From: Lachnospiraceae bacterium
GTDB taxonomy: Bacteria; Bacillota; Clostridia; Lachnospirales; Lachnospiraceae
Reading direction: 5' to 3'
DNA length: 64,000 nucleotides
Assembly: GCA_017543445.1 (NCBI GenBank)
Contig: JAFYGB010000069.1
Coordinates: 109,954 to 173,953, forward strand
Part shown: one piece after another, positions 20,618-62,420 of the stretch
Numbering within the stretch: the stretch's first letter is position 1
Layout of the letters: each line of letters begins with the position of its first letter
Notes under the pieces: model-generated
What the model was told of the DNA's origin: nothing
Databases searched by the model: none
The model's input: the letters and a program-made list of their open reading frames with translations, nothing else
Position numbers and translations under genes: made by a program

Positions 20618-21745
20618 ATGCACGCTTATAATTGTAAGATCTGCGGTATGCCGTTGGACATTCTTGAGGGAATGCATGTCTGTACGTGTGAACATTGCGG
20701 CAGTTCCCAGACATTACCGAAACTCGGCAACGAGGAGCGTATCGCGGCGATCAACCGGGCGAACCAGCTCCGTCGAAACGGGAATTTTGATCGTGCTTTG
20801 CAGATGTTCGAGGAATTGGTCGCACAGAAGGATCCGTACGATCTTTATGATAACGAGGATGCCGATCTGATCTGGTCGCTGGTTTTGTGCCGCTATGGCA
20901 TCCGCTATGAGGTCGATCCTACGACCCAAAAGCCAGTTCCGGTCTGCCGCCGGCCGCAGGATAAGAATATTACAGAAGACGAGGATTATCAGCGCGCTCT
21001 ATCCTGTGCGGATTTCGAGCAGAAGGTTGCGATCATGGATGCGGCGCGTCGGATCTCAAATACAGGAAACATCACGTTGGAATGTCCGAAACCGGAAGAG
21101 GTTCAGGACGCTCCGAAAACATTTAGCAAGGAAGATGTCGACGATATCCTGGAAGCGATCCGCGGAGAGAATGAATACGATGCACCGGAAGTAGCTCGTG
21201 AGGAAAAAGCGTCCGATACCGTGACAGCGGAAGCCGTTTCGATGGTATCTCAAGAAGCGGTTCAAACGCAGACAGAGCGCGATTCACGGGAGGTTCGGAA
21301 TACGCGACTTGCGCTCCAAGAAGTCGATGATGAATGGAACTGGTTGGAGAAGGAGGACGCATATCACTATTTGGTATCGCTGGGGGATTATGAAGACGCG
21401 AATTTGATCTTAGATGAGTATCGATATGAACAACTCCCGAAAAAAAAGAATGATGAGTGGCTGAGTCAAGAGGATAAAAAGGGGCTGCGGTACGTGCTTT
21501 TGGCGCTTGCGGGGATCAGCCTGATCGTCGGGATCGCCTTGGGCAGTCAGGCAACTAAGAGCGACTCCTATGAGGGCAGTTTCCTTACGGCCGTGTTGGA
21601 AGTGACGATCCTTATGATGATCGTTCTCGGTATTCCGGTCGCACTGTATCTATTTAACGACCGAATCGCGAAATGGAAGAGAGATTTTTTTGGAAGAAAT
21701 GAGGAATCTGAGGAAGACCGGGAATCGGAGGAGGACCCAAAATGA
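20618..21745 (+). CDS. Zinc-ribbon/TPR-like membrane protein, TIR-less member 1 of the array
   Basis: This 375-residue protein begins with a zinc ribbon (CKICG...CTCEHCG) and the AINRANQLRRNGNFDRALQ helical repeat shared by all five array members. Up to AARRISNTGN (about residue 150) it aligns with its neighbours. It then lacks the TIR domain and runs through an acidic linker, a LGDYEDANLI repeat and two membrane helices (about 290-345) with a charged tail. GAGAGGAGG precedes the start. The stop overlaps the next start (ATGA), so the array is an operon. Function unknown; it could be an accessory or decoy partner of the TIR members. Confidence 0.72.
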   Translation: MHAYNCKICGMPLDILEGMHVCTCEHCGSSQTLPKLGNEERIAAINRANQLRRNGNFDRALQMFEELVAQKDPYDLYDNEDADLIWSLVLCRYGIRYEVDPTTQKPVPVCRRPQDKNITEDEDYQRALSCADFEQKVAIMDAARRISNTGNITLECPKPEEVQDAPKTFSKEDVDDILEAIRGENEYDAPEVAREEKASDTVTAEAVSMVSQEAVQTQTERDSREVRNTRLALQEVDDEWNWLEKEDAYHYLVSLGDYEDANLILDEYRYEQLPKKKNDEWLSQEDKKGLRYVLLALAGISLIVGIALGSQATKSDSYEGSFLTAVLEVTILMMIVLGIPVALYLFNDRIAKWKRDFFGRNEESEEDRESEEDPK

Positions 21746-23769
21746 CTGTATATACATGTAAAATGTGTGGTGCCCCGTTGAAGATCACCGAGGGCATGAC
21801 GGTTTGCGAATGTGAGTACTGCGGTACCTCTCAGACTCTGCCGAAGATCGGCGATGAGAAGCGTATCGCGGCGATCAACCGTGCGAACCATCTGCGCCAG
21901 AGCGGGGATTTCGACCGCGCGGAGCAGGTGTATGAGGATCTGATCGCACAGGAGGAGTCCGGCGAACTGTACGGGAATGTTGACGGCGCGGGGGATGTAA
22001 GCCGGGCCGAAGAGCTCGCTGCGATCCGGCAGATGGATGCGGATCTGTTTTGGTCATTGACACTGTGCCGTTACGGCATCGAGTATGTGACTGATCCTAC
22101 GACCGGACGGAAGATCCCGACCTGTCACCGCCTGCAATATAAGAACATTCTGGACGACGATGATTATCGTCGTGCGGTTTCCTATGCGGATTTCGAGCAG
22201 AAGGAATTGATCCTGTCCGAGGCCCGTTATATTTCGAACGTGCAGAAACGCATCCTCGAGATCTCGAAGCAGGAAGATCCGTACGATGTGTTCATCTGCT
22301 ATAAAGAAAGCGATGAGCAGGGCACTCGCACGAAGGACAGTGTGCTGGCCCAGGATATGTATTATCTATTGGTTCGTGAAGGTTTTAAGGTCTTCTTCGC
22401 CCGTGTGACTCTGGAGGGGAAATTGGGAACCGAATATGAGCCTTACATATTTGCGGCCTTGCATTCAGCGAAGACCATGATCGTGATCGGCACGAAGAAG
22501 GAATATTTTGAGGCGCCCTGGGTGAAGAATGAATGGATGCGGTACCTGGCCATCATGAAGGAGGACCGCAGCCGTCGTCTGATTCCGGCGTATCAGGGAA
22601 TGGACCCGTATGACCTGCCGGATGCGCTTGCAACGTTCCAAGCACAGGATATGTCGAAACTCGGTTTCATGCAGGACATCCTGGCAAACATTGGCCGAAT
22701 GGCTCAAGAAGAGAGCGGGAAGAACTCTGCGATCCGAGAGACACTGGTAGTCGCGGACATGACCGAGACGGCGCCGTTATTACGTCGTATCGGCTACTTC
22801 CTCGAGGACGGGGAGTTCGACCGGGCGGCGCAGTATTGCGATCGCGTGCTGAATATAGAACCCGAATGTGCACAGGCCTATGTGTATAAACTGATGGTCG
22901 AGAAGAAAGCACACACGCTCGAGGAACTGGAGTGGACGCTCGATGAGGACGGAATCACCTACGACGACAGTTATAAAAAAGCGATCCGTTTTGCGGATCC
23001 GGAGTTGAAGGAAAAACTCAAGCGGCTCGACCAGCAGATGATCTACAACGATGCGGTTTCCAAAATGCAGAAGACCGAGGATCTGGTCCTTATGGCAGAG
23101 GCGGTTTCGGAGTTTCGGACCATTCCCGGGTTTAAGGATGCGGATGAGAAACTTTTGGAATGCATTGTGCTGAAGAAAGAACTGTTGGAGAAACAGTATA
23201 ACGAGGCAACCCAGGATATGGCGAGATTACTGGACCCGGCGACGCCGCGATATGCCTCACCGTTTTTCAAATTGGCCCAGCAGTTTGATACGATCGCACA
23301 TATGCAGCCGGACGAGGAACTGAGTGGACTGGAGCGAGACCAGATCCGCATTTGCATCCAGATCAGTGCGGATAAGACACGGGAGTGCAAATACCTCGGT
23401 GCGGTCGCAGAATTAGACCGGGCGACGCTTCCGAACGATGTGAAGACGGCGTGCAGGCATCTGGAGGAATTGGGTGACTATAAGGATGCACGGAAATTAG
23501 CGAGTGCATGTCGAAGCAACATTAAAAATCGGGAAATGTGGAGGTTGACCAGCGCAGCCAGGACGGCGGAGCGGGTGGCACAGGAAACCGCGGAAAGAGA
23601 GAGGTCCGTGGGCGGATCTGAAAGGGGCTTCCGAGATCTTCCGGCACCGCTTCAAGTCATTATTGCTCTGGGCATAGCAGCTTTTGTGATAGTGATTCTC
23701 TATGGGTTCCTGACGGGAAAACTCACATTAGGGGAGCTGTTCAAAGCACTTCTTGAGATAGATGACTGA
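21742..23769 (+). CDS. Zinc-ribbon/TPR/TIR membrane protein, member 2 of the array
   Basis: The 675 residues hold a zinc ribbon (C6, C9, C24, C27), TPR-like helices (about 38-175), a TIR domain (about 181-318: YDVFICYKES, FKVFFARVTLEGKL, EYEPYIFAAL, MIVIGT, APWVKNEW), a helical-repeat region with LGDYKDARK, and one C-terminal membrane helix (about 632-655). Acidic residues E231/E233 sit where TIR NADases carry their catalytic glutamate; which one is catalytic cannot be told by eye. The family is widespread but uncharacterised in gut Firmicutes. NAD-cleaving immune or stress signalling is a hypothesis. Confidence 0.78.
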   Translation: MTVYTCKMCGAPLKITEGMTVCECEYCGTSQTLPKIGDEKRIAAINRANHLRQSGDFDRAEQVYEDLIAQEESGELYGNVDGAGDVSRAEELAAIRQMDADLFWSLTLCRYGIEYVTDPTTGRKIPTCHRLQYKNILDDDDYRRAVSYADFEQKELILSEARYISNVQKRILEISKQEDPYDVFICYKESDEQGTRTKDSVLAQDMYYLLVREGFKVFFARVTLEGKLGTEYEPYIFAALHSAKTMIVIGTKKEYFEAPWVKNEWMRYLAIMKEDRSRRLIPAYQGMDPYDLPDALATFQAQDMSKLGFMQDILANIGRMAQEESGKNSAIRETLVVADMTETAPLLRRIGYFLEDGEFDRAAQYCDRVLNIEPECAQAYVYKLMVEKKAHTLEELEWTLDEDGITYDDSYKKAIRFADPELKEKLKRLDQQMIYNDAVSKMQKTEDLVLMAEAVSEFRTIPGFKDADEKLLECIVLKKELLEKQYNEATQDMARLLDPATPRYASPFFKLAQQFDTIAHMQPDEELSGLERDQIRICIQISADKTRECKYLGAVAELDRATLPNDVKTACRHLEELGDYKDARKLASACRSNIKNREMWRLTSAARTAERVAQETAERERSVGGSERGFRDLPAPLQVIIALGIAAFVIVILYGFLTGKLTLGELFKALLEIDD

Positions 23770-23800
23770 TACTCTCGCGGGGGAATATGGAGAAGGAAAT

Positions 23801-25897
23801 ATGATCGTTTATACATGTAAAATGTGCGGTGCGCCGTTAAACATCACGGAGGGGATGACGGTTTGCGAATGTGAGTATTGCGGTACTTCCCAGACGCTGG
23901 CGAAGATCGGCGATGAGAAACGTATCGCAGCGGTCAACCGCGCAAATCATTTTCGCCAAAGCGGGGATTTCGACCGGGCGGAGCAGGCCTATGAAGAATT
24001 GATCACACAGGGGGGATCGGACGGCAATGTGGACGATGCGGATCTGTACTGGTCCTTGACTCTGTGCCGATATGGCATCGAATATGTGACCGATCCCACG
24101 ACCGGGCGGAAGGTCCCGACCTGCCATCGCCTGCAATATAAGAACATCCTGGACGATGATGATTACCGCCGTGCGGTTTCCTGTGCGGATCTCAGCCAGA
24201 AGAGAGTGCTCTTGTCTGAGGCCTGCTATATTTCAGACGTGCAGAAGCGCATCCTCGAGATCTCGAAGCAGGAAGATCCGTACGATGTGTTCATTTGTTA
24301 TAAGGAGAATAACGAGCAGGGCGCGCGCACGAAGGACAGCGTACTGGCGCAGGATATGTACTATCAATTGCTTCGTGAGGGTTTCAAGGTTTTCTTTGCC
24401 CGAGTGACGTTGGAGGGAAAACTGGGGGCCGAATACGAGCCTTATATATTTGCGGCCTTGCATTCGGCGAAGACCATGATCGTGGTCGGCACGAAGAAGG
24501 AATTCTTTGAGGCTCCTTGGGTGAAGAATGAATGGATGCGGTACCTGGCCATCATGAAGGAAGACCGCAGCCGTCGCCTGATCCCTGCCTATCTGGGAAT
24601 GGATCCTTATGACCTGCCGGATGCGCTCGCGACGTTTCAGGCGCAGGATATGTCGAAGCTCGGTTTCATGCAGGATATGCTGACGAACATTGGCCGGAGG
24701 GACCAGAAGGAACGGGATAAGACGGCCGCGAAGCGAGAGACTCTGGTGGTTGCGGATATGACCGAGACGGCGCCGCTGTTGCGTCGTATCGGCTACTTCC
24801 TCGAGGACGGGGAGTTCGACCGGGCGGCCCAGTACTGCGACCGCGTGCTGAACATAGAACCCGAATGCGCGCAAGCCTATGCATATAAACTGATGATCGA
24901 GAAGAAAGCGCATACGCTCGAAGAGCTGGGGCAGGTGCTCGATCATGATGGCATCACCGCCGATGACAGCTACAAGAAGGCGGTCCGGTTTGCGGATCCG
25001 GAGTTGAAGGAAACGCTCAAACGGCTCGACCAGCAGATGATCTACAACGATGCGATCACGAAGATGCAAAAGGAAGATGATCTGGAGGCCATCCGTGAAG
25101 CGATCCATGAGCTCGGCGTCATAGCGGGGTTTAAGGATGCGGATCAAAAGCATTCCGAAGCGATCGATATATTTACCCAAACCTCCGAGAAACTGTTCCA
25201 TACCTTGAACCGGGAGATGGAGGACCTGGAAGGAAAAACGGATCATTCGGCGATGGAACGGTATTCGCAACTGGCCGAACGTTTCGTGAAATTTCAGAAG
25301 GTCCGCGTTTTGGATGAAATGGGAGCGGCTGAGAAGGAAGAATTCATGAAACGCGCGTTCCTGTGTGAAGAGGATGCAAAAGCCTGCCGGTTCCAGGCTG
25401 CCGTTATAAAGGTCAGTGAAGCGGAAACGCAGAAATCCCAAACGCCGTATGACCGGCTTCAAGCAGCGAAAGAAATGAGAAAATTCGGAGATTATCGCGA
25501 CGCTGCAGAACGGGCGGCTGCCTGTGAGAAGATCGCACATGAAGAACTCTACGACCATGCGAAGAACGCCATGAAAAAAGCCCGCAGACCGGAGGATTAT
25601 TATGGCGTAGCGAAACTGTTTGAAGAGATCATGGGGTATGCGGATTCCCGGAGAATGGTCGAGAAATGCCGAAACAAGGCGGTTACAAAGGAGTTTGTGC
25701 ATACGTTTTATCCGTTTGTTCTGATCATTATCGCCGGCCTCGGCGAGATCCTTAGCTATGTGTACTTGCACGGCCAGCCGGAGAATAATACGCTATATAC
25801 AGTTCTCGCCAGTATATTTGCCATACCGCTCTTGATCGGGGGCATTGTGGTTGCGATACGTTTGGCGATCTGGCTTGAACAATTCTCGGATATGTAG
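23801..25897 (+). CDS. Zinc-ribbon/TPR/TIR membrane protein, member 3 of the array
   Basis: This 698-residue protein is nearly identical to member 2 over the zinc ribbon, TPR-like region and TIR domain, including long stretches of identical DNA. It diverges after about residue 410, where its helical repeats (FGDYRDAAERAA) differ. It ends in two membrane helices (VLIIIAGLGEILSYVYL and AIPLLIGGIVVAIRLAI). This looks like a recent tandem duplication followed by divergence or replacement of the C-terminal half. ATG 23801 follows GGAGAAGGA; the frame is open upstream to 23762, inside member 2's end. The role is presumably that of member 2. Confidence 0.77.
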   Translation: MIVYTCKMCGAPLNITEGMTVCECEYCGTSQTLAKIGDEKRIAAVNRANHFRQSGDFDRAEQAYEELITQGGSDGNVDDADLYWSLTLCRYGIEYVTDPTTGRKVPTCHRLQYKNILDDDDYRRAVSCADLSQKRVLLSEACYISDVQKRILEISKQEDPYDVFICYKENNEQGARTKDSVLAQDMYYQLLREGFKVFFARVTLEGKLGAEYEPYIFAALHSAKTMIVVGTKKEFFEAPWVKNEWMRYLAIMKEDRSRRLIPAYLGMDPYDLPDALATFQAQDMSKLGFMQDMLTNIGRRDQKERDKTAAKRETLVVADMTETAPLLRRIGYFLEDGEFDRAAQYCDRVLNIEPECAQAYAYKLMIEKKAHTLEELGQVLDHDGITADDSYKKAVRFADPELKETLKRLDQQMIYNDAITKMQKEDDLEAIREAIHELGVIAGFKDADQKHSEAIDIFTQTSEKLFHTLNREMEDLEGKTDHSAMERYSQLAERFVKFQKVRVLDEMGAAEKEEFMKRAFLCEEDAKACRFQAAVIKVSEAETQKSQTPYDRLQAAKEMRKFGDYRDAAERAAACEKIAHEELYDHAKNAMKKARRPEDYYGVAKLFEEIMGYADSRRMVEKCRNKAVTKEFVHTFYPFVLIIIAGLGEILSYVYLHGQPENNTLYTVLASIFAIPLLIGGIVVAIRLAIWLEQFSDM

Positions 25898-25905
25898 GAG
25901 GGACT

Positions 25906-27966
25906 ATGGCAGTATATACTTGTAAAATGTGCGGAGGTAAGTTGAAGACCGAAGAGGGGACATCCATCTGCACCTGTGAATATTGCGGAACGCGGCAGAC
26001 ATTGCCCCTGATCAATGACGAACAGGCGGCCAATATGATCAACCGCGCGCATCATTTCCGCCAGCTCGGAGAGTTTGATAAGGCGGCGGATGCTTATACG
26101 AAACTGATCGCCACAGAAGGGGGCGCAGGTTCGGAAGGAAGACCGGGGGCGGACCCGGATCTGTTCTGGTCGCTGGTGCTGTGCCGTTACGGCATCGAAT
26201 ATGTCAACGATCCGGTGACGCATACGTGGATCGCGACCTGCCATCGCATGCAGTATAAGAGCATCCTGGATGACGCGGATTATCTGCAGGCGGTGAAGAC
26301 GGCGGATGCGATGCGCCGTATGTATTACGAGCAGGAGGCGCAGTATATTGCGACGATCCAGAAGGGCATCCTGGAGATATCGGAACGGGAAGAGCCGTTC
26401 GATGTCTTTTTGTGTTACAAAGAGACGGACGCGGATGGCAAGCGTACGAAGGACAGCGTCCTGGCGCAGGAGATGTACTACCAGTTGATGAAGGACGGAT
26501 TTAAGGTATTCTTCGCCCGGATCACTCTGGAAGGAAAACTCGGAACCGAATATGAGCCTTATATTTTCGCGGCGCTGCATTCGGCGCGCACCATGGTCGT
26601 GATCGGCACCGATCCGGCTTACTTCAGTGCGCCCTGGGTGAAGAATGAATGGGCGCGTTACCTGTCGATCATGCAGGAGGAGGGCTTCCGTACGCTGATC
26701 GTGGCGTATAAGGACATGAACCCGTACGACATCCCGGATGCATTGTCCATGTATCCGGCACAGGATATGAGTGAACTGGGATTCTTGCAGGAACTGACCC
26801 GCGGTATCCGCAAACTGACGCATAAGGAAGAGGAGATCCAAAACCGAAGTCGTGCCCGTGAGACCGTTGTGATCACCGCAAATTCCAATGTCGATCCGCT
26901 CCTGCGGCGTATCGGTATGTTCATGGAGGATGGCGATTTCACCAGCGCCATGGAGTATTGTGAAAAAGCGTTGGACATTTACCCCGAATGCGCACAGGCC
27001 TACCTGTATCTCTCCCTTGCAAAGCGGGGATGCAAAACGGTGGAACAGGCACTGACGGTCGGAACGGCCCAAAGCCTTCTGGAAGATCATGATTTTCAGA
27101 AGGTCCTTCGCTTCGGCGATGAAACCTTCACGAAGAATTTTAAAGATATGGTCCGCGAGAGTGAGTACGTGGCGGCCGTGTCCCTGTATGACGCATTCTT
27201 GGAAGAAGAACTGCGGGACGGAAAACTCCCGGCGGAGCGGGTCCGTGATCTGATCGCACGGTTCTCGAATATGAACGAATATAAGGACAGCGCCATGTAC
27301 ATAGAATTGCTGGAGAGAAAATTCACCACAAATTACATGGCGGAGGTCGCAGACCAGCTGAGACAGGCGAAGACGCTGGCGGAGCTTAGCGCGGTGGCGG
27401 ATCTGATCCGGGGCATGAAAGATCAGCGGGATACCGCTGAATTTCAGAGAACTTTCGATTATCCGGACGACGCGACCCTTTATGAAAAGGCGATCGGGAT
27501 GATGCTTCCCGGGCGGCATGTTTCGGAATACCTCCAGGCGGCGCGGATGTTTGCTTATTTGACGGATTATCAGGATTCACCGGCACAGATGAAGGAATGT
27601 TGCCAAAAAGTCCTTTATGAAGAGGGGTGTGCGGCATCGCTCGGGAACTCAGCATCCGATCTGGCCAATGCCATGCGGATATTCAATTCCCTCGGTGATT
27701 ATGCCGACGCGCCCGAAAAGGCGCAGCTCGCGAAAGATAAGTGGCAGAAACAGCTCTATTCCGTGGCAGATAACACTTTGGTTTGCGGCAAGACACCGGA
27801 GGATCTCGAGCGGGCAGTAAACATTTTCCGGTCGCTGGGCAGCTATTCGGATTCCGAGGAACGGGCTCTGGAGGCTGAGAAGAAACTGAAGAAAATGGTC
27901 GGTAAGATCAACGAAGAAAGTGTAGACAGCAAGGGCGGCGGATTCATGATGAAAAAGTGGTTGTAA
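25906..27966 (+). CDS. Zinc-ribbon/TPR/TIR protein without membrane helix, member 4 of the array
   Basis: The 686-residue protein has the same order: zinc ribbon (CKMCG...CTCEYCG), MINRAHHFRQLGEFDKA repeat, TIR (FDVFLCYKETD to about residue 315) and a long C-terminal helical-repeat region (LTDYQDSPAQ, LGDYADAPEK, LGSYSDSEER). It differs from members 2 and 3 in lacking a C-terminal membrane segment; it ends with GGGFMMKKWL. It is therefore probably the soluble member of the set. GGAGGG precedes the start 8 bases after the previous stop. Confidence 0.76.
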   Translation: MAVYTCKMCGGKLKTEEGTSICTCEYCGTRQTLPLINDEQAANMINRAHHFRQLGEFDKAADAYTKLIATEGGAGSEGRPGADPDLFWSLVLCRYGIEYVNDPVTHTWIATCHRMQYKSILDDADYLQAVKTADAMRRMYYEQEAQYIATIQKGILEISEREEPFDVFLCYKETDADGKRTKDSVLAQEMYYQLMKDGFKVFFARITLEGKLGTEYEPYIFAALHSARTMVVIGTDPAYFSAPWVKNEWARYLSIMQEEGFRTLIVAYKDMNPYDIPDALSMYPAQDMSELGFLQELTRGIRKLTHKEEEIQNRSRARETVVITANSNVDPLLRRIGMFMEDGDFTSAMEYCEKALDIYPECAQAYLYLSLAKRGCKTVEQALTVGTAQSLLEDHDFQKVLRFGDETFTKNFKDMVRESEYVAAVSLYDAFLEEELRDGKLPAERVRDLIARFSNMNEYKDSAMYIELLERKFTTNYMAEVADQLRQAKTLAELSAVADLIRGMKDQRDTAEFQRTFDYPDDATLYEKAIGMMLPGRHVSEYLQAARMFAYLTDYQDSPAQMKECCQKVLYEEGCAASLGNSASDLANAMRIFNSLGDYADAPEKAQLAKDKWQKQLYSVADNTLVCGKTPEDLERAVNIFRSLGSYSDSEERALEAEKKLKKMVGKINEESVDSKGGGFMMKKWL

Positions 27967-27981
27967 TTCTTCTTTAAAGCC

Positions 27982-28010
27982 TTTTCAAATCACTCGAAAT
28001 GTGTTATAAT
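27982..28010 (+). promoter_or_regulatory. Internal promoter before member 5 of the array
   Basis: A perfect TATAAT (28005-28010) has TTTTCA 17 bases upstream (27982-27987). The 124-base gap here is the only sizeable one inside the array. Confidence 0.45.
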
Positions 28011-28090
28011 AACAGACAGATATACTATCGGAATCCAATATGTGCGAAAACGAGAAGAATCGAGTCGATATGTAAAGGAGAAAATATACC

Positions 28091-29647
28091 TTGGCTGTAA
28101 TGAATTGTAAAATGTGCGGGAACCCGTTGTTCGTGATGGACGGGATGACGACCCGCGAATGCACGACGTGTAAGACCGTGCAGACGGTTCCGAAGAATAT
28201 AAGCAACGAGAACCTCGACATGATCAACCGCGCGACCGCATTTCGCCAGAGCGGCGACTACGATAAAGCGACGAAGATCTATAAAGACCTGGTGGCCCGG
28301 GAGCAGGATGCAGACCTGTTTTGGGGCCTGGTCCTGTGTCGTTATGGCGTACATTACGTTGACGACGCGAGCAGCGGACGTAAGATCCCGGCATGTGATA
28401 ACCCGCAGTACCAGAGCGTCTTGGCGGACGACAACTATCTGCGCGCGTGCGAACTGGCCACACCGGAGCAGTATGAACTGTTCTCGGAGGAGGCTCGCAT
28501 CATCGCAGCCATCCAGAAGCGCCACCTGCAGGAAGTAAATGCAAAAGAAGCCGCCGAGTCTCGTATGCTTTCCGACGGTTCCGACCGTTTCCCGGGAGAG
28601 GAGCCCGGTGACGGGGCCTCCGGCGATGAAGCGTCGGTTTCGTTGTTGCCGGCCGTTCTCGGAAGGCAGAAACTTGTCGATCCGGAGATGGCAGAGGCGG
28701 ACCGTATCTTCGCCCGCGGTATCCTGGATACGCGTTCCCTGAATAATCTGGCGAACCGCTATGAGAAACTGGCGGCTGTTCGTGCGAAACCGGGGGACAG
28801 TAAGGAGGTCCGTGCGGCGCTGGAGGAGCGGCGCGTGGAATGCCTTGAGAAGGCGAAAGAGTGCCGTTATCGCTCGGCGAATATGATCCTGGAAGCGAAC
28901 GGAAACGCGGAGAGCATGATGAATGCATCCAACACGTTCGCACAGTTGGAGTACTACAAAGACTCCAAAGACCTGATGCTCAATTGTATGGACCGTGCTT
29001 TGGATAAGACGCGTAAGGTGCAGGATCGCCTGGCGTCCGCTTCGGTGTCTGACCGAAGACTTTTGGCGGATCTGTCCATGCGATACAAAGAATTGACGGA
29101 TGAAGAGATCCCCATGAGCGTTCCGGATGAGATCCGGAAGTCGTTGAACAGCCGTAAGCGTGAGTTTACCATCCGGGCCAATGAGTGTGATTACCTGATC
29201 GCTCTCATCGACATGGAGAATTCAAAGGATCCCGAGATCTTACGGACGGCGGCGGAGACATTCCAGAACCTCGGTAAGTTCCGTGATGCTTCCAAGCGCA
29301 TGGATGAAGCGCAGAAGAAGTCGATGGCAGCGATGTACGAGCGTGCAGAGCAGGCCATGAAGTGGGCCTATGAGCCGGAGCAGTTCGAAGAGGCGGCGGC
29401 TTTGTTCGAGGAACTCGGAGATTACCGTGACAGCGTGCTGCAGGCTTCCGTTTGCCGTAAGAAAGCTGTCCGCAAGGAACTTAAGCACATCAGCAATAAA
29501 CGCTGGCACCTGATCGTCGCGGCGGTCGCGATCACCGTTATCCTGATCGTAGCGCTTCTGGTCTGGATACAGCCGGAACTGCCTGTATGGGTCGGCGTAT
29601 TTTTGGGCGTTGGTTATCTGTGGAAGCGGATCCTGGAAACTTTGTAA
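28091..29647 (+). CDS. Zinc-ribbon/TPR-like membrane protein, TIR-less member 5 of the array
   Basis: The 518-residue protein starts at TTG 28091, giving MAVMNCKMCG like member 4 and good spacing to AAGGAG. ATG 28100 would be too far. After the shared zinc ribbon and ATAFRQSGDYDKATK repeat it stops aligning near IAAIQKRHL, the same junction at which member 1 loses the TIR domain. A Gly/Glu-rich linker, several helical repeats (LEYYKDSKD, LGKFRDASK, LGDYRDSVLQ) and two C-terminal membrane helices follow. It is not translationally overlapped with member 4 and has its own -10 box. Confidence 0.72.
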   Translation: MAVMNCKMCGNPLFVMDGMTTRECTTCKTVQTVPKNISNENLDMINRATAFRQSGDYDKATKIYKDLVAREQDADLFWGLVLCRYGVHYVDDASSGRKIPACDNPQYQSVLADDNYLRACELATPEQYELFSEEARIIAAIQKRHLQEVNAKEAAESRMLSDGSDRFPGEEPGDGASGDEASVSLLPAVLGRQKLVDPEMAEADRIFARGILDTRSLNNLANRYEKLAAVRAKPGDSKEVRAALEERRVECLEKAKECRYRSANMILEANGNAESMMNASNTFAQLEYYKDSKDLMLNCMDRALDKTRKVQDRLASASVSDRRLLADLSMRYKELTDEEIPMSVPDEIRKSLNSRKREFTIRANECDYLIALIDMENSKDPEILRTAAETFQNLGKFRDASKRMDEAQKKSMAAMYERAEQAMKWAYEPEQFEEAAALFEELGDYRDSVLQASVCRKKAVRKELKHISNKRWHLIVAAVAITVILIVALLVWIQPELPVWVGVFLGVGYLWKRILETL

Positions 29648-55986: not shown

Positions 55987-56535
55987 TTGACGCTTTGTTT
56001 GATGGCGTTTGATACGCCGGTAGAGAAGAATTTATTTACCAAACTCTACGAACGGTATCAGTACTACATGCTCTATCTAGCCAATGGTATCCTGCAGAAT
56101 CACTCATTGGCGGAGGATGCAGTCCAAGATGCTTTTCTTACATTAACCCGATACATGGACCGCGTGGAGGACGTGGAGTCCCCGAAGACGCGCAACTTCC
56201 TGGCGACGATCACGAAGAGTCGCGCCGTCGACCTGCTGCGTAAGGAGAAACGGTACATGGAAGCGGCGGACATCGACGAGGAAGGATATCGGATCGAGAG
56301 TAAGGACGAACAGCCGCTGGAGCAGCTGATCCGGGAGTCGGAACACGCACAGTTGCGTGCGTGCATCAAAAAACTGACGCCGGAGCACCAGACGGTTTTG
56401 GAATTAAAATATGTGCACGGGCTGAAGGAACGTGAGATCGCAGACCTTTTGGGCATACCGACGAAGACGGCCGGGATGCGGATCCTGCGGGCGCGTGAGA
56501 AACTTCGGACCATGCTGACCGGAAAGGAGGAGTAA
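55987..56535 (+). CDS. ECF-type RNA polymerase sigma factor
   Basis: The 182-residue protein has sigma region 2 (LAEDAVQDAFLTLTRYMDRV, ATITKSRAVDLLRKEKR) and region 4 (LTPEHQTVLELKYVHGLKEREIADLLG, shown in part). TTG 55987 is chosen since GGAGG lies nine bases upstream; ATG 56002 would be 24 bases away. The next gene, four bases after the stop, encodes a single-pass membrane protein in the position of an anti-sigma factor. Target promoters are unknown. Confidence 0.87.
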   Translation: MTLCLMAFDTPVEKNLFTKLYERYQYYMLYLANGILQNHSLAEDAVQDAFLTLTRYMDRVEDVESPKTRNFLATITKSRAVDLLRKEKRYMEAADIDEEGYRIESKDEQPLEQLIRESEHAQLRACIKKLTPEHQTVLELKYVHGLKEREIADLLGIPTKTAGMRILRAREKLRTMLTGKEE

Positions 56536-56538
56536 GTC

Positions 56539-57510
56539 ATGATGAACGAAGACGAATTGATGAAACAGGCGTTGGAAGACGAACTGGAAGATTCTTATCA
56601 GGAATACCTGACGCATGCGCTAAAGGGCGAGACGCAGGACCTGATGCAGACGAGCTCCGAATATCGGCATAATATGGAGGAACTGTGCCGCGAGTCAGAA
56701 CATCTGGATACAAAGGTCGTTCCGATCCGGCCGATCGCGAAGAAGAAGATCTATCTGTATGCGAAGATCGCTTCCGGTCTGGCGGCCGCAGCTGCTGTGC
56801 TCTTGGTATGTGTGCTCGGCGTGAACATGATCATGAATAAAAACGATGCATCCAACAAAGCCAACGATCAGGTCGATGGTACTTACCGTGAGATCGCGCA
56901 GAACATGACGGATGAACAAAGTGTGATCGGTGCGGGCGGAGATACGAAAACCGCGGCGCCGCTGGCTACGTCAGCTATGATCGAAGACAATAAGAATGAG
57001 GTCACCACTTCCACTCTGCAGATCGGCCTGCCGCCCGAAGTCGTCGCCGCCTCGGTTGAAGATTCCGCCAGCCCGACTGGGGAGATAAAAATCTATAGGG
57101 CGAACTTTTTAACCGCTCGAGCCGGCATAGAAATGAACGGGATCGACTCGATCCCCGGGGCCACGACCGAGCATAACCTGACGATCCCGACCCGCAAAGG
57201 TAAGGATGAGGGAGACCCGCTTGCCGAAGAAAAGAGGGAGAATGAAAACAGCGTAGCATTGTCCCAGGTCGAGGTATTCCTCCCGAAGCAGGGGGGGATC
57301 CTTCCCGGAGCGATCCGATCGGCTTACATTGAGAAGGACCGGATATCCTATTCCGAGATATCGAGAGAAGAGTTAGAAGACGGCGCGCGGGTCGTACTGG
57401 AATTGTCCACCGATCTCGCTGTTGAAGCGGAGCCGGGCGCGAACCGAAATATCCTGTTGATCGTGTTCTACGGGAACAATGATATACTTCTGACTTATCA
57501 GATCCAGTGA
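56539..57510 (+). CDS. Single-pass membrane protein, putative anti-sigma factor
   Basis: The 323-residue protein has a cytoplasmic acidic N-terminus (about 1-65), one membrane helix (about 72-94) and a large extracellular domain. Position after the sigma gene suggests an anti-sigma factor, but the usual zinc HxxxCxxC motif is absent (only an isolated Cys in LCRES). The ectodomain has a repeated beta-like pattern (EIKIYRANF, SQVEVFLPKQGG) and no recognised family. AAGGAGGAG precedes the start. Confidence 0.65.
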   Translation: MMNEDELMKQALEDELEDSYQEYLTHALKGETQDLMQTSSEYRHNMEELCRESEHLDTKVVPIRPIAKKKIYLYAKIASGLAAAAAVLLVCVLGVNMIMNKNDASNKANDQVDGTYREIAQNMTDEQSVIGAGGDTKTAAPLATSAMIEDNKNEVTTSTLQIGLPPEVVAASVEDSASPTGEIKIYRANFLTARAGIEMNGIDSIPGATTEHNLTIPTRKGKDEGDPLAEEKRENENSVALSQVEVFLPKQGGILPGAIRSAYIEKDRISYSEISREELEDGARVVLELSTDLAVEAEPGANRNILLIVFYGNNDILLTYQIQ

Positions 57511-57552: not shown

Positions 57553-57595
57553 CATAACGCTTGCGTACGGTTGTTTCCGTATGCAAGCGTTTCTG
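57553..57595 (+). terminator. Terminator of the sigma/anti-sigma pair
   Basis: ACGCTTGCGTACGG/CCGTATGCAAGCGT around TTGTTT, followed by TTCTGCTTTTT. Confidence 0.75.
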
Positions 57596-57602
57596 CTTTT
57601 TC

Positions 57603-57631
57603 TTGACTTTTTCGCCTCAAAATTCTATAAT
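57603..57631 (+). promoter_or_regulatory. Promoter of the five-gene membrane operon
   Basis: TTGACT (57603-57608), 17 bases, TATAAT (57626-57631). This is a standard sigma-A promoter, so the adjacent ECF sigma is not needed for basal expression. Confidence 0.8.
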
Positions 57632-57678: not shown

Positions 57679-58305
57679 ATGGCATACGAAAAAGGAACAG
57701 TAACGCGCCAGGCACCGTCCATCGCGGACCTGGAGAAAGACCTGAACTATTACAGGGTCGAATTAGAAGTCGTACAGCTGAAAAAAGCCGAAGCGATCAC
57801 GTTTTCATTGAAGATGGTGCTTCTGATCATCGTGGCAGCAGCCCTTTCGATCTTCGCTGACACAGTCTTGATGAAGAAAGAGGCGCTCCATATATTCGGG
57901 ATCATTCTCATCGTGTTCTGCATCGCAGCGGTAGGCTTCGGTCTGCTGATGCTGATCCAGCGTGTTCCGATGATCGTATCCCAGCGCCACGTGGATACCG
58001 GCGTGATGATGCCGCCCGCCAGATTGATCTTTGAGTATAAGCGCATCATCGACGATAAGGAGAAGCTCCTGGCGCAGGCACGCGCGGCAGAGGAGCGGAT
58101 GGAGCTGGATGCCGAAGCACGTAAGCTTGAGTTCGAAGCGGAACGCCAGGTGATGGAGGTGCAGTTCGGAGTCGGAGAGAACATCCGGCTAGGCGACGAA
58201 AGCGGGATCTCGATGGATGACGATCTGGGACCGACCCTCTCGCTGGAGGATGCATTGTCCGAGATCGAGAACTTTAAGGACGAGGAAGAAGAAACACAAA
58301 GCTAA
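57679..58305 (+). CDS. Two-helix membrane/coiled-coil protein with shared C-terminal motif, operon gene 1
   Basis: The 208-residue protein has an N-terminal helix (about 14-38), two membrane helices (about 44-62 and 70-95), a cytoplasmic coiled coil rich in Ala/Glu/Arg (about 120-165) and a Gly/Asp-rich linker. It ends LSLEDALSEIENFKDEEEE. The (S/P)-x-E-(D/E)-A motif plus acidic end recurs on all five products of this operon. No known family is recognised. AAGTAAGGAAAC precedes the start. Confidence 0.7.
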   Translation: MAYEKGTVTRQAPSIADLEKDLNYYRVELEVVQLKKAEAITFSLKMVLLIIVAAALSIFADTVLMKKEALHIFGIILIVFCIAAVGFGLLMLIQRVPMIVSQRHVDTGVMMPPARLIFEYKRIIDDKEKLLAQARAAEERMELDAEARKLEFEAERQVMEVQFGVGENIRLGDESGISMDDDLGPTLSLEDALSEIENFKDEEEETQS

Positions 58306-58325
58306 GAGTCATCAGGGGAAGTAAA

Positions 58326-58976
58326 ATGGCTATTTTAGGGGATCGTGTTGCACAGCAACAGTATTTGATACGTAAGGAGGCACTGGATAAACAGGAATAT
58401 GCTCTGAAGGACGCCGAGCGGGACCACGGGCGTTATCGTTTGTGGTTTATCGCCAGTCTGGTCATCATGTTGGGCCTGTATTATCTGACGAACATACAGG
58501 ATGTCTTCGAGATCGATAAGATCAAGAAGGATAATTCCATGGAATACGCCCTGTTTATGGGGAGTTTCTCTATGGTCATGGTCTGGGTCTATGTTACCTA
58601 TGCCGTGATCGTGTTCTTCGGTGTGATCGCTTGTGTCGGACTGTACCGTACGATGGTCGTGCGGGACGGAGAGACCGGACGCCGGATGTTTTACGTTTCC
58701 TATGTCAAACTCCAGAAGCAACGGATCCTGCAGGCACGCGAGGCGATGGTTGAACAGAAGAGCCGCGCCCGTGAGGAGCGAGAACGCATCGAGATGGCGG
58801 AGAAACTGCAGATGGACAGTTTCATTGCGATGAAGAACCGCAATGACGGCCAGATGGCGACGGATGACTTGAAGCCGAAGGCGGATGGTATCGCCCGGGA
58901 TGCCAGCGGAAACCTGGTCATTCCGATCGAGGATGCGATCCGTTCCATCTATGGCGAAGACGAAGATACAGAGTAA
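58326..58976 (+). CDS. Two-helix membrane/coiled-coil protein with shared C-terminal motif, operon gene 2
   Basis: The 216-residue protein repeats the design of gene 1: an N-terminal amphipathic helix (EALDKQEYALKDAERDHG), membrane helices at about 40-57 and 80-108, then a basic-acidic coiled coil (REAMVEQKSRAREERERIEMA). It ends LVIPIEDAIRSIYGEDEDTE. Sequence identity to gene 1 is low outside the tail, so homology is suggested by architecture rather than by alignment. Function unknown. Confidence 0.7.
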   Translation: MAILGDRVAQQQYLIRKEALDKQEYALKDAERDHGRYRLWFIASLVIMLGLYYLTNIQDVFEIDKIKKDNSMEYALFMGSFSMVMVWVYVTYAVIVFFGVIACVGLYRTMVVRDGETGRRMFYVSYVKLQKQRILQAREAMVEQKSRAREERERIEMAEKLQMDSFIAMKNRNDGQMATDDLKPKADGIARDASGNLVIPIEDAIRSIYGEDEDTE

Positions 58977-58992
58977 GGGGTTGTGTGTAGAT

Positions 58993-61086
58993 ATGGATGA
59001 AACCGGAATCAGCAAAGCCGAACAGGTCACCCTGTTAAAGGGGCTGATCGAAGAGGGAGTCCGGCAGAAACGGGAGATCGTTTTCAAACATCGGGAAGCG
59101 CAGGAAGAGATGCTACGTTATGGTATCCTGCTCGCGTTTCTCGTAAGCATCAGTTTGGTGAGCATTCTCCGGGATGCTTTGATCGCCCACGGGATTAAGA
59201 GTGGAGATGCCTCGCAAGTGGTGGCCGGATTTACCTTCGGTGGCTTGCTGGACATTTTCTATCTGATCCTCGGGCTCATAGCGCTGGCTTTCATATATAA
59301 GTGTGCGGTCGCATTTTCGAAGTATTCGAGTCCGATCCGCATGAAGGACGGCACCGAGCTTCCTTTTAGGGAGGCGGCGGCCGCGATCGACAGTATGACG
59401 AAGCGGAACTTCCGCAAACTCATCGAGATCCGCCAGGGTATGACACCCGCGGAGATGGATGCCACACGTATGGAACCGTATCGTTTCGACACGGTAAATA
59501 CGGGATATTACGGGGATGCCGTACGGCTGACGGTCCCCCAGATCGAGAAGAACAAAGAAGAGATCAACGAGAAACGTTCGATCGTGGTCCGGGATCTGGA
59601 AGAGATCCAGGTCCATCGGAAGACGAACTGGCAGTTGATGGTCATTGCGATCGTGATCGCGGTGGTTTCCCGAATCCTGGATGGACCGATCGCAAACTAT
59701 TTTCCGACGTATGTTTGGAAGGTTTGGATGGTACTTTCGTATCTGATGTTTTATGGCGGTATCATCGTTGCGATATTCTACGGCATCCGTTATCTCTACG
59801 AAAAGAGGGAGAACCGATTGGTTCCGTCGATCGCATTGATCGACCAGTATGAGAACTCGATCGAAAACTATAACTACCTTCTGACCGATATTGAATTTAT
59901 GCTCGTCTGTGCACAGCGTCGTAAAGACCCGACTTGGAATAAGCCGGTGATCGATATGACCGAGACGAAGACAATCTCCATGGCGGAACTGACCGAGGCG
60001 GTCGCGGAAGCGGAGCGTACGAAGGATGCACAGCAGGAACCGAATATGGAGGTTCGGTCCGGGCAGACAGATCCGAAGACGTCCCAGAAGGAGAATCCTT
60101 ACGATCTTTCCTATGGAAGCGTCGGGACCGATTATGATCTCGTCGGTTCATTTACCTCGTCCGAGGTAGAGCCGATCGATCTAATGCCGAACATCAAAAG
60201 TCCGGTGGAGCCAGAGGCTAAACCTTCCGGTGTGCAGATGGAGGGAAATGCCGAAGCTACGGAGCCAATTGCGGCGGACGATGCGAAGGCGGCTGAGACA
60301 TTGACCGAGGAAGCAAACGCGGCCGATGCAGCGGAGCCGGCGACCGAGGCTGCGCCTGACGAAAAGAGCGAAAAAGCTGCTGCAGATGAGCAGAAAAAAC
60401 TGGAGGAATATATGCGGGATTTGAAGAGAAAAGCACAGGAAGAGGCGGATTTTTCCGCCGAATTGGAAAACGAGATGGAGAGGATCCGTCAGATGCCACA
60501 GGAGGAGATCGTCGAAGAAAAAGAGGTAGCTCCCCAGCATCCGGCCAGCAGTAATCTGTTCTATTATCCGACGGCGACCACGCGCGAGCAGACACCGTTT
60601 GAGGATCAGAATGATGAAGGAAACAGTTACATCAACCATTCTGCCCACGCGGCTGAAGCATTGGCGGATGATGAGCATGCGGCATTCCGGCATCGAACCG
60701 GTGGTGAGAAGGATAAATACAACTATGACGGCCGACCGAAGAAGGCTACTGTACTTCGGCGTGCGGCGATGTCCACCGATCAGGATCCGGTAGATACTTC
60801 CGATTTTCCGAAGGAAGAGACTCCGATCCGTCCCGCACACGAAGAGCCTAAGGTGGAGGAGAAGAAAACCACCTTGCGTACCAGCGACGAATTCGAAGCT
60901 TCCATGACTGAGCATATGCGCTCCCTTCAGGAGGATTACGGCAAGCAGGATGTTTCTGCACGCGAAGTAGGAAGGGCATCGACAGGCCAGGGTTCCCACG
61001 TTCGCATGGACCGCGAACAGGGCCTCACCATCTCGCTGGAAGATGCGCTGAAGGATCTTGAGTCGTATACGGACGATGAAGAATAG
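58993..61086 (+). CDS. Large four-helix membrane protein with long acidic region and shared C-terminal motif, operon gene 3
   Basis: The 697-residue protein looks like two copies of the operon's helix-pair module in one chain. Helix pairs lie at about 38-55/78-100 and 215-235/250-275, separated by a charged segment. About 370 residues of mostly disordered Glu/Ala/Pro-rich sequence follow, including a coiled-coil stretch (EEYMRDLKRKAQEEADFSAE). The protein ends LTISLEDALKDLESYTDDEE. The start at 58993 gives MDETGISKAEQ; the ribosome site AAGGGG is distant, and frames further upstream lie inside gene 2. It is the likely scaffold of the set (inference). Confidence 0.68.
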   Translation: MDETGISKAEQVTLLKGLIEEGVRQKREIVFKHREAQEEMLRYGILLAFLVSISLVSILRDALIAHGIKSGDASQVVAGFTFGGLLDIFYLILGLIALAFIYKCAVAFSKYSSPIRMKDGTELPFREAAAAIDSMTKRNFRKLIEIRQGMTPAEMDATRMEPYRFDTVNTGYYGDAVRLTVPQIEKNKEEINEKRSIVVRDLEEIQVHRKTNWQLMVIAIVIAVVSRILDGPIANYFPTYVWKVWMVLSYLMFYGGIIVAIFYGIRYLYEKRENRLVPSIALIDQYENSIENYNYLLTDIEFMLVCAQRRKDPTWNKPVIDMTETKTISMAELTEAVAEAERTKDAQQEPNMEVRSGQTDPKTSQKENPYDLSYGSVGTDYDLVGSFTSSEVEPIDLMPNIKSPVEPEAKPSGVQMEGNAEATEPIAADDAKAAETLTEEANAADAAEPATEAAPDEKSEKAAADEQKKLEEYMRDLKRKAQEEADFSAELENEMERIRQMPQEEIVEEKEVAPQHPASSNLFYYPTATTREQTPFEDQNDEGNSYINHSAHAAEALADDEHAAFRHRTGGEKDKYNYDGRPKKATVLRRAAMSTDQDPVDTSDFPKEETPIRPAHEEPKVEEKKTTLRTSDEFEASMTEHMRSLQEDYGKQDVSAREVGRASTGQGSHVRMDREQGLTISLEDALKDLESYTDDEE

Positions 61087-61112
61087 GAAAAACGGGAATT
61101 GAGTAACGAATC

Positions 61113-61766
61113 ATGAATTTGGATTTTGCTAAGCATCAACAACAGCTTCAGGAAGTGCACAGGAAACTGGTGGATCATGAAGAGGAATATGCGAACGCAG
61201 TAAAAACGCACGAAAAACAAGGCCATAACATTTTGGTGTGTACGATCGTGATCGTGGCACTGGTGGCTGTGACCGCATTGTTTCGTATGATGGATGACAA
61301 CGTCGACGTGGATCTGGCGAAAAAACAAGGCGGAGGCATCGGGGAGATGACCCTGGTGGGTTACGGACTTACATCCGTCGCGAAATACCTGATGTACGCC
61401 GGTATCGTAGCTCTGGGCGTCATTATTATCCTGAATCTGCGCAGGCGATTTTATTACATTGACCCGGTCAGCCGGGATAATCAAAGTTATGCGCAGTTCG
61501 TGATCCTTCAGGAAGAAGCGATCCGAAAACTTCGGGTGGAAGAGAAGAAACTCGAAGAAGAGGCGAGGGCCATGGAGCAGGCCGCGAAGCAGGCGGCATT
61601 GGCCGACGACAGACAGACGTTCGGTGAGCGACCGGAAGAGAACGTGTTCTCCGATACCGGCGTGATGGACGGAGTCAGCAATACAGACGGAGATCTGGTG
61701 CTATCCATAGAAGATGCATGGGACAGCATCCAAGAGGAGGATGAATATGAAAATAAACAAGAATAA
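61113..61766 (+). CDS. Two-helix membrane/coiled-coil protein with shared C-terminal motif, operon gene 4
   Basis: The 217-residue protein begins with a coiled-coil-like helix (DFAKHQQQLQEVHRKLVDHEE) and has membrane helices at about 38-56 and 88-108. A long cytoplasmic coiled coil (VILQEEAIRKLRVEEKKLEE) follows, with the end LVLSIEDAWDSIQEEDEYE. Its last 20 bases overlap gene 5. Function unknown. Confidence 0.7.
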   Translation: MNLDFAKHQQQLQEVHRKLVDHEEEYANAVKTHEKQGHNILVCTIVIVALVAVTALFRMMDDNVDVDLAKKQGGGIGEMTLVGYGLTSVAKYLMYAGIVALGVIIILNLRRRFYYIDPVSRDNQSYAQFVILQEEAIRKLRVEEKKLEEEARAMEQAAKQAALADDRQTFGERPEENVFSDTGVMDGVSNTDGDLVLSIEDAWDSIQEEDEYENKQE

Positions 61767-62349
61767 TCTGAAAGATGTTGATCTGCAGCGGATCAAAAAG
61801 ATGGTTTCAAATCTGGAGATCGCGCGTGTAGAGATCAAAAAGAACCGCGTTCGGGAGATCTTACGCGTTGTTTTCTATGTTGTGCTCGTATTTGCCTTAT
61901 TCTTCTCATGGGCAGTTTCGGACTTCATGGACGAATATCGGCAGAATGACATGGCAATTGTGGCGAATATGTTCGGTACACTGATCATTCTTCTGTTGAT
62001 CGCCCTCGTTGTGCTGATCATCATGACCGTTCGCCGTATCTTCGTTGTTTACGATCCGTACAACAACCAGTGGCTTCGGTATGAGCATGTTATAAAGAAG
62101 TATGACGAGAAGATCAAGAGACAGCAGATGATCCTGGATCTGGCAGAAGGCAAAAAGGTTTCTTCGGAAGCGCTGAACGAGAATGGCGAGAAGATCGATG
62201 TGGAGATCCTCAATCAGGAACTGGACGAACCGGTGAAGGAATGGAAGGTTTTCGAAGAAGAGGGCGAGGTCATCTACGAGGAAGTTATCCACGATTCGAC
62301 GACCATGTCGATGGAAGAAGTTGCCGAACTGCTGCGTGAAGACGACTAA
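61747..62349 (+). CDS. Two-helix membrane protein with shared C-terminal motif, operon gene 5
   Basis: The 200-residue protein has two membrane helices (about 38-56 and 68-92) and a charged cytoplasmic part, and it ends MSMEEVAELLREDD, the most diverged form of the shared tail. ATG 61747 is chosen because GAGGAGG lies seven bases upstream, within the end of gene 4; ATG 61741 would be too close. No terminator is seen between this gene and the rplM promoter. Confidence 0.68.
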   Translation: MKINKNNLKDVDLQRIKKMVSNLEIARVEIKKNRVREILRVVFYVVLVFALFFSWAVSDFMDEYRQNDMAIVANMFGTLIILLLIALVVLIIMTVRRIFVVYDPYNNQWLRYEHVIKKYDEKIKRQQMILDLAEGKKVSSEALNENGEKIDVEILNQELDEPVKEWKVFEEEGEVIYEEVIHDSTTMSMEEVAELLREDD

Positions 62350-62391: not shown

Positions 62392-62420
62392 TTGACATCT
62401 GCTTGCGGCTGTTATATAAT
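62392..62420 (+). promoter_or_regulatory. Promoter of rplM-rpsI
   Basis: TTGACA (62392-62397), 17 bases, TATAAT (62415-62420): a near-perfect promoter fitting ribosomal protein expression. Confidence 0.85.

Follow-up and report, generated by a model that had tools for sequence, protein, structure and literature searches.

An apparent five-gene operon found in one genus of Lachnospiraceae encodes membrane proteins with a common C-terminal motif and a possible scaffold role

FtsZ carries a variable disordered linker that ends in a short conserved docking peptide. AmaP, as described in PMC6954212, is a small membrane protein that shares an operon with the cytoplasmic protein Asp23 and holds it at the membrane, and the encapsulation peptides described in PMC12339742 are helices that can form trimers and co-assemble different carriers. 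Here we analyse five genes, A to E, at positions 57679-62349 of the window, by which we mean the whole 64,000-nucleotide stretch of Lachnospiraceae bacterium DNA. All five lie on the + strand; successive genes are 20, 16 and 26 bases apart, and the last pair overlaps by 20 bases. The initial annotation of this DNA, which had placed five adjacent genes here, was correct on this point.

57679..58305, + strand: gene A, two-TM protein of 208 aa (reading frame and hydropathy)
58326..58976, + strand: gene B, two-TM protein of 216 aa (reading frame, hydropathy and a low-confidence model)
58993..61086, + strand: gene C, four-TM protein of 697 aa (reading frame, hydropathy and a low-confidence model)
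61113..61766, + strand: gene D, two-TM protein of 217 aa (reading frame and hydropathy)
61747..62349, + strand: gene E, two-TM protein of 200 aa (reading frame and hydropathy), overlapping the 3' end of D

The start codon of gene C was taken as the ATG at 58993, and the ATG of gene E at 61747 is preceded by AGGAGG. The gene order A to E is identical in all six genomes of the genus, the set being split over two contigs in one of them. Ahead of gene A lie two further elements.

57556..57591, + strand: terminator-like hairpin at the end of the upstream sigma-factor unit (15-pair stem with a T run)
57603..57631, + strand: sigma-A type promoter TTGACT-17-TATAAT ahead of the operon (11 of 12 matches)

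The hairpin is discernible by eye in the six aligned genus genomes, and both promoter hexamers are invariant in all six. Since the promoter scan returned about the number of sites expected by chance (10 as compared to 7.3), what counts is that the match is near-perfect and that it is conserved; a 12/12 promoter-like site is located at 62392-62420, ahead of the next gene (rplM by eye). A to E appear to form a single operon, driven by a promoter of the housekeeping type. Upstream of them lie an ECF sigma factor (Pfam) and its partner gene, apparently encoding a one-TM protein (window 55987-57510), as well as apparent housekeeping genes. The N-terminus of the partner is well kept and the remainder is changing fast; the gene was found in the genus only (6 of 41 genomes). 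Control of the operon by this sigma factor is not favoured, because the terminator-like hairpin and the invariant sigma-A type promoter separate the two; judging by the conserved sequence, expression would start from the housekeeping-type promoter.

Downstream of the operon we find rplM-rpsI (by eye) in four genomes and a tad pilus locus in the other two (L025 10847-19699 and L026 1735-10693). In L025, TadZ and the T2SSE ATPase are confirmed, and an Flp-like protein and one of ~1230 aa were recognised by eye; genome G004 has a T2SSF match on another contig that equals the tad-locus matches in strength. As the tad locus adjoins the operon in only two of the six genomes, we treat it as a mere neighbour and set a functional link aside. 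In one relative, several lipoprotein-like paralogues (four by eye) lie 3' of rpsI (L024 12350-16568). Elsewhere in the window, at 20618-29647, five tandem genes encode proteins that, by eye, have a zinc-ribbon-like CxxC pattern at the N-terminus; four of these were scanned, three matching TPR models (one below cut-off) and one matching nothing, and two of the TPR-matching proteins also have a TIR_2 domain.

A search among relatives recovered the operon in 6 of 41 genomes, its own included; these six all belong to the genus, and 6 of 6 genus genomes analysed have it. The five related records comprise four Lachnospiraceae assemblies and one uncultured Clostridiales, and three of them come from water-buffalo rumen or omasum. 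Four profiles (E, B, C and a joint one of A, B, D and E), each run against 250 family genomes (two of the genus), gave no convincing member outside the genus and weak matches only. E matched three genomes (E-values 5.8e-5 to 0.008) and B a single one (0.0017); the joint profile matched 19 at E-values up to 0.1 (best 0.0024), and C one, in a frame with internal stops (0.0036). The best outside match, conceivably a distant relative, is a single reading frame of genome G121 that lacks a tail and in which two membrane helices can be made out by eye. The earlier statement that no known family is recognised was upheld by four collections. The best Pfam match was DUF5305 on protein E (8.7e-5, 22.5 bits, under the cut-off of 29); NCBIfam gave nothing over cut-off for A to E (best 0.0032), PADLOC nothing at E-values up to 0.1, and PHROGs a best match of 0.0055, which is not convincing. 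The same goes for solved structures searched by sequence (best 0.056 for the joint profile and 0.69 for C), and no paper title in the literature searched dealt with an operon of this kind or with the genus. A mobile element was considered and rejected: no relative of B turned up in viral contigs (none of 27 pattern matches was confirmed), plasmids or phages. Within the genomes searched the operon was thus found only in this genus and appears genus-specific. That a set of no known family is present in six of six genomes, behind an invariant promoter, suggests that the genus likely depends on it.

Hydropathy predicts two membrane helices in every protein except C, which has four and which we therefore read as two hairpins; the paired membrane helices originally claimed for every protein therefore stand for A, B, D and E, and in C become two pairs. 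An AlphaFold model of B, built from 22 sequences including the paralogues A, D and E (mean pLDDT 61.9), has, at low confidence, helices 2-65 and 72-110, a small beta-hairpin at 111-122 and a helix at 123-177, followed by a disordered linker and a tail helix at 201-209. The model of C, for which 5 orthologues only were at hand (mean pLDDT 51.1), has, again at low confidence, helices 8-67 and 74-112, two short strands (115-116, 122-123) and a helix at 125-148. In this model another hairpin unit follows (181-229, 239-270 and 279-310), and after it a largely disordered region that includes helices 330-347, 458-500 and 624-650; the tail helix is at 682-690. Both models are weak, and the sole use we make of them is their agreement in the order of elements: at this low confidence, B and C appear to follow one design of helix, membrane hairpin, small beta-hairpin, long helix, linker and tail helix. 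The long, acidic and mostly disordered stretch of C holds, at residues 326-648 and apart from the tail, ten islands rich in invariant residues (64-82%). The scaffold-like anatomy claimed for the five proteins is supported.

Each of the five C-terminal motifs quoted in the initial annotation was located in A to E.

58237..58266, + strand: tail motif of A, LSLEDALSEI (pattern in orthologues, PSSM)
58920..58949, + strand: tail motif of B, IPIEDAIRSI (pattern in orthologues, PSSM; predicted helix 201-209)
61030..61059, + strand: tail motif of C, ISLEDALKDL (pattern in orthologues, PSSM, pN/pS)
61701..61730, + strand: tail motif of D, LSIEDAWDSI (pattern in orthologues, PSSM)
62305..62334, + strand: tail motif of E, MSMEEVAELL, the weakest member (pattern in orthologues, PSSM p=0.034)

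The consensus is hydrophobic-[S/P]-hydrophobic-E-[D/E]-[A/V]-x3-hydrophobic, followed by an acidic end. To set the likeness against chance, we took the highest-scoring 12-residue block shared within the final 36 residues and compared it with 400 shuffles: it scores 223 for A to E (shuffle maximum 165) and 167 for A to D (maximum 112), and random internal stretches of the five proteins gave at most 120 in 300 draws. With leave-one-out PSSMs, none of 5000 shuffles equalled A, C or D, and B is at p=0.0002; for E, the p-value against the matrix of A to D is 0.034 within the final 36 residues and 0.064 over the whole cytoplasmic part, and pairing the E tail with any one other tail gave a block score not above shuffles. 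Leave-one-out tail HMMs for A, B, C and E, run over 254 reading frames of the window, placed C (E-value 5.8e-4) and A (0.017) above all non-members, and B (3.7) below two unrelated frames; E was not listed. The tails of A to D are alike beyond chance. That of E is probably a member of the shared motif, a reading helped by its C-terminal place and by the conservation of the E motif. The tail helices have moments of 0.36-0.40, individually not above shuffles (p 0.09-0.22). A second copy of the motif inside C (TISMAELTEAVA, residues 327-338, window 59971-60006) was considered and is not counted, as it scores no better than chance with the tail matrix (p=0.19); TISMAELTEAVA itself is largely retained in five of five orthologues.

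Loss of the tail from orthologous operons had been named as an observation that would speak against the shared tag; the motif stands in all 30 orthologous genes of the six genus genomes, a count that describes rather than tests, as the pattern was derived from these same tails. The ratio pN/pS is low throughout A to E, and in all five proteins it is lower in the tail than in linker and body: tail and linker values are 0.29 and 0.40 in A, 0.11 and 0.17 in B, 0.019 and 0.41 in C (the extreme case), 0.22 and 0.40 in D, and 0.056 and 0.094 in E. Ranking windows along each protein, 6 of 684 are at least as conserved as the tail in C, as compared to 25 of 195 in A, 36 of 203 in B, 64 of 204 in D and 56 of 187 in E. 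Conservation of the tail over the rest of the protein is thus modest in A, B, D and E, and stands out in C. In D, the tail region also contains a possible start codon, and the ribosome-binding site of E falls just past the motif; these overlapping signals may restrict silent changes in the D tail.

Compared across paralogues, tail identity among pairs of A to D is 33-68%, as against a body identity of 15-22% for the pairs of A, B and D. By pair, tail and body identities are 0.54 and 0.22 for B-D, 0.36 and 0.18 for A-B, and 0.41 and 0.15 for A-D; the A and C tails are 0.68 identical, with bodies that have no detectable similarity. With E the tail is slightly ahead for D-E (0.21 and 0.18) and A-E (0.20 and 0.12), and the order is reversed for B-E (0.06 and 0.13). 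The separate constraint on the tail that had been proposed from the sequence is therefore supported by the comparison of tail with body, and is modest outside C by window ranking.

The bodies themselves had been said to share little sequence. A profile of B, tails included, matches D (4e-12) and, in G003, A (1.5e-8). When tail-less profiles were compared pairwise, B-D gave 1.8e-8 (probability 95%), A-B 5e-5 (67%), D-E 1e-4 (58%) and E against the first half of C 3e-4 (40%). No link emerged for the other 11 of the 15 pairs, all at 0.006 or worse; 15 reversed controls range from 0.0046 to 0.6, the reversed control of B-E being better than the true pair. Plain searches link A and C solely across linker and tail. 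The description is therefore right only in part; as judged from these profiles the B-D kinship is beyond doubt, and the other links are weak. With the clear B-D link and the weak ones of A-B, D-E and C-E, the five are probably one old tandem-duplicated family, and common descent accounts for part of the tail likeness. Could the tail then be mainly a leftover of tandem duplication that ordinary purifying selection has preserved, with no binding role common to the five? Some bodies are indeed related, pN/pS is low everywhere and the E tail has drifted, all of which would fit; however, a leftover sits poorly with A and C tails that are 68% identical on bodies whose kinship is beyond detection, and with a C tail at pN/pS 0.019 beside a linker at 0.41, and we consider this explanation improbable.

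Who else carries the tail? We searched with a 25-column profile built from 29 of the 30 operon tails. In the six genus genomes it returned 30 matches (E-values 4.5e-12 to 2.7e-7), five per genome and all in the operon. With 29 of these tails in the profile such matches are expected, and the real test is the absence of others: the next matches in the genus are at 0.34 and 1.01, and the best among 118 others of 120 family genomes (two of the genus) is at 0.168. The search for chance carriers, which had been named as a way to overturn the shared tag, thus gave none further in the six genus genomes and none above chance in the 118 others, with the reservation that a carrier as divergent as the E tail would escape the profile. 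The match at 0.34, G000:C15:8144, lies at the start of an open frame, just past a stop codon, and is not a tail, and its strength is within the chance level of other genomes.

The apparent confinement of the tail to the operon bears on what the tail does. A degradation tag for a protease adaptor, one of the two roles initially suggested, would agree with a short, C-terminal, hydrophobic-acidic element. However, 4 to 13 residues lie between motif and C-terminus, in A to D these ends differ in length and sequence among orthologues (they hardly vary in E), and no carrier was found outside the operon in the six genus genomes; we dropped this suggestion as very unlikely. Docking on one dedicated cytoplasmic reader encoded elsewhere, with the five proteins as membrane anchors gathering it as AmaP does Asp23, is the main rival reading, possible although somewhat doubtful. 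One binding surface would fit a motif that five membrane proteins have in common and that is more strongly conserved than the linker, and protein E weakly matches the AmaP anchor model (NF033218; E-value 0.0087), although its 15.8 bits are far under the curated cut-off of 55; A to D were not listed for this model, and the Pfam scan gave no Asp23 match among A to E. As, in the stretches read, the downstream genes differ among the genomes and the sigma unit and apparent housekeeping genes lie upstream, no candidate reader is linked to the operon.

With the tail confined to the operon as far as the profile could detect, and no reader candidate linked to it, mutual binding of the tails is the cheapest reading: self-association would explain the same facts without an extra protein. 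We put even weight on the proposal that the five diverged paralogues of one unit make up a genus-specific membrane scaffold with the common tail as its co-assembly tag. The unit would consist of a cytoplasmic helix, a two-helix membrane hairpin, a juxtamembrane beta-hairpin, a long cytoplasmic helix, a disordered linker and a short C-terminal helix, an order taken from hydropathy and the two low-confidence models, with membrane sidedness inferred. The tail, as a short helix on a flexible linker, would gather the five proteins, either by tails bundling together or by all docking on one common partner, and C, with its two hairpins and ten conserved islands, could act as a hub. A more specific version, which we offer tentatively and regard as rather unlikely in full, is a tandem-duplicated hetero-oligomeric scaffold in which a private self-recognising C-terminal helix sorts the five proteins and C is a multivalent disordered hub. 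If the tails are such a private assembly code, the operon would be a small testable case of a lineage building a new membrane assembly, and the route would be to duplicate one protein and keep one linear motif.

How does this scaffold compare with the systems described above? The FtsZ C-terminal linker and peptide are alike in combining a variable disordered linker with a short conserved end; the proteins and the peptide are other ones, and the Pfam matches of A to E include no tubulin domain. The AmaP/Asp23 pair, as described in PMC6954212, offers a small membrane protein that is encoded in its partner's operon and anchors a cytoplasmic protein. The encapsulation peptides, as described in PMC12339742, resemble the predicted form of the tails in being short helical domains on disordered linkers, with several proteins per assembly, and are able to self-associate and to co-assemble their carriers, which is the likeness we propose for the tails. 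That the tails are themselves encapsulation peptides of a bacterial microcompartment is a negligible prospect, even though the low-confidence models predict a comparable arrangement of short helix and disordered linker: a PF00936 shell protein was found in none of the six genus genomes, while 2 of 14 control genomes were positive, and the tail carriers are membrane proteins. The likeness is thus drawn without a claim of sequence relation, between a system with shell genes and one that lacks them and whose carriers are integral membrane proteins; if the proposal is true, the operon would encode a membrane-bound counterpart of encapsulation-peptide co-assembly.
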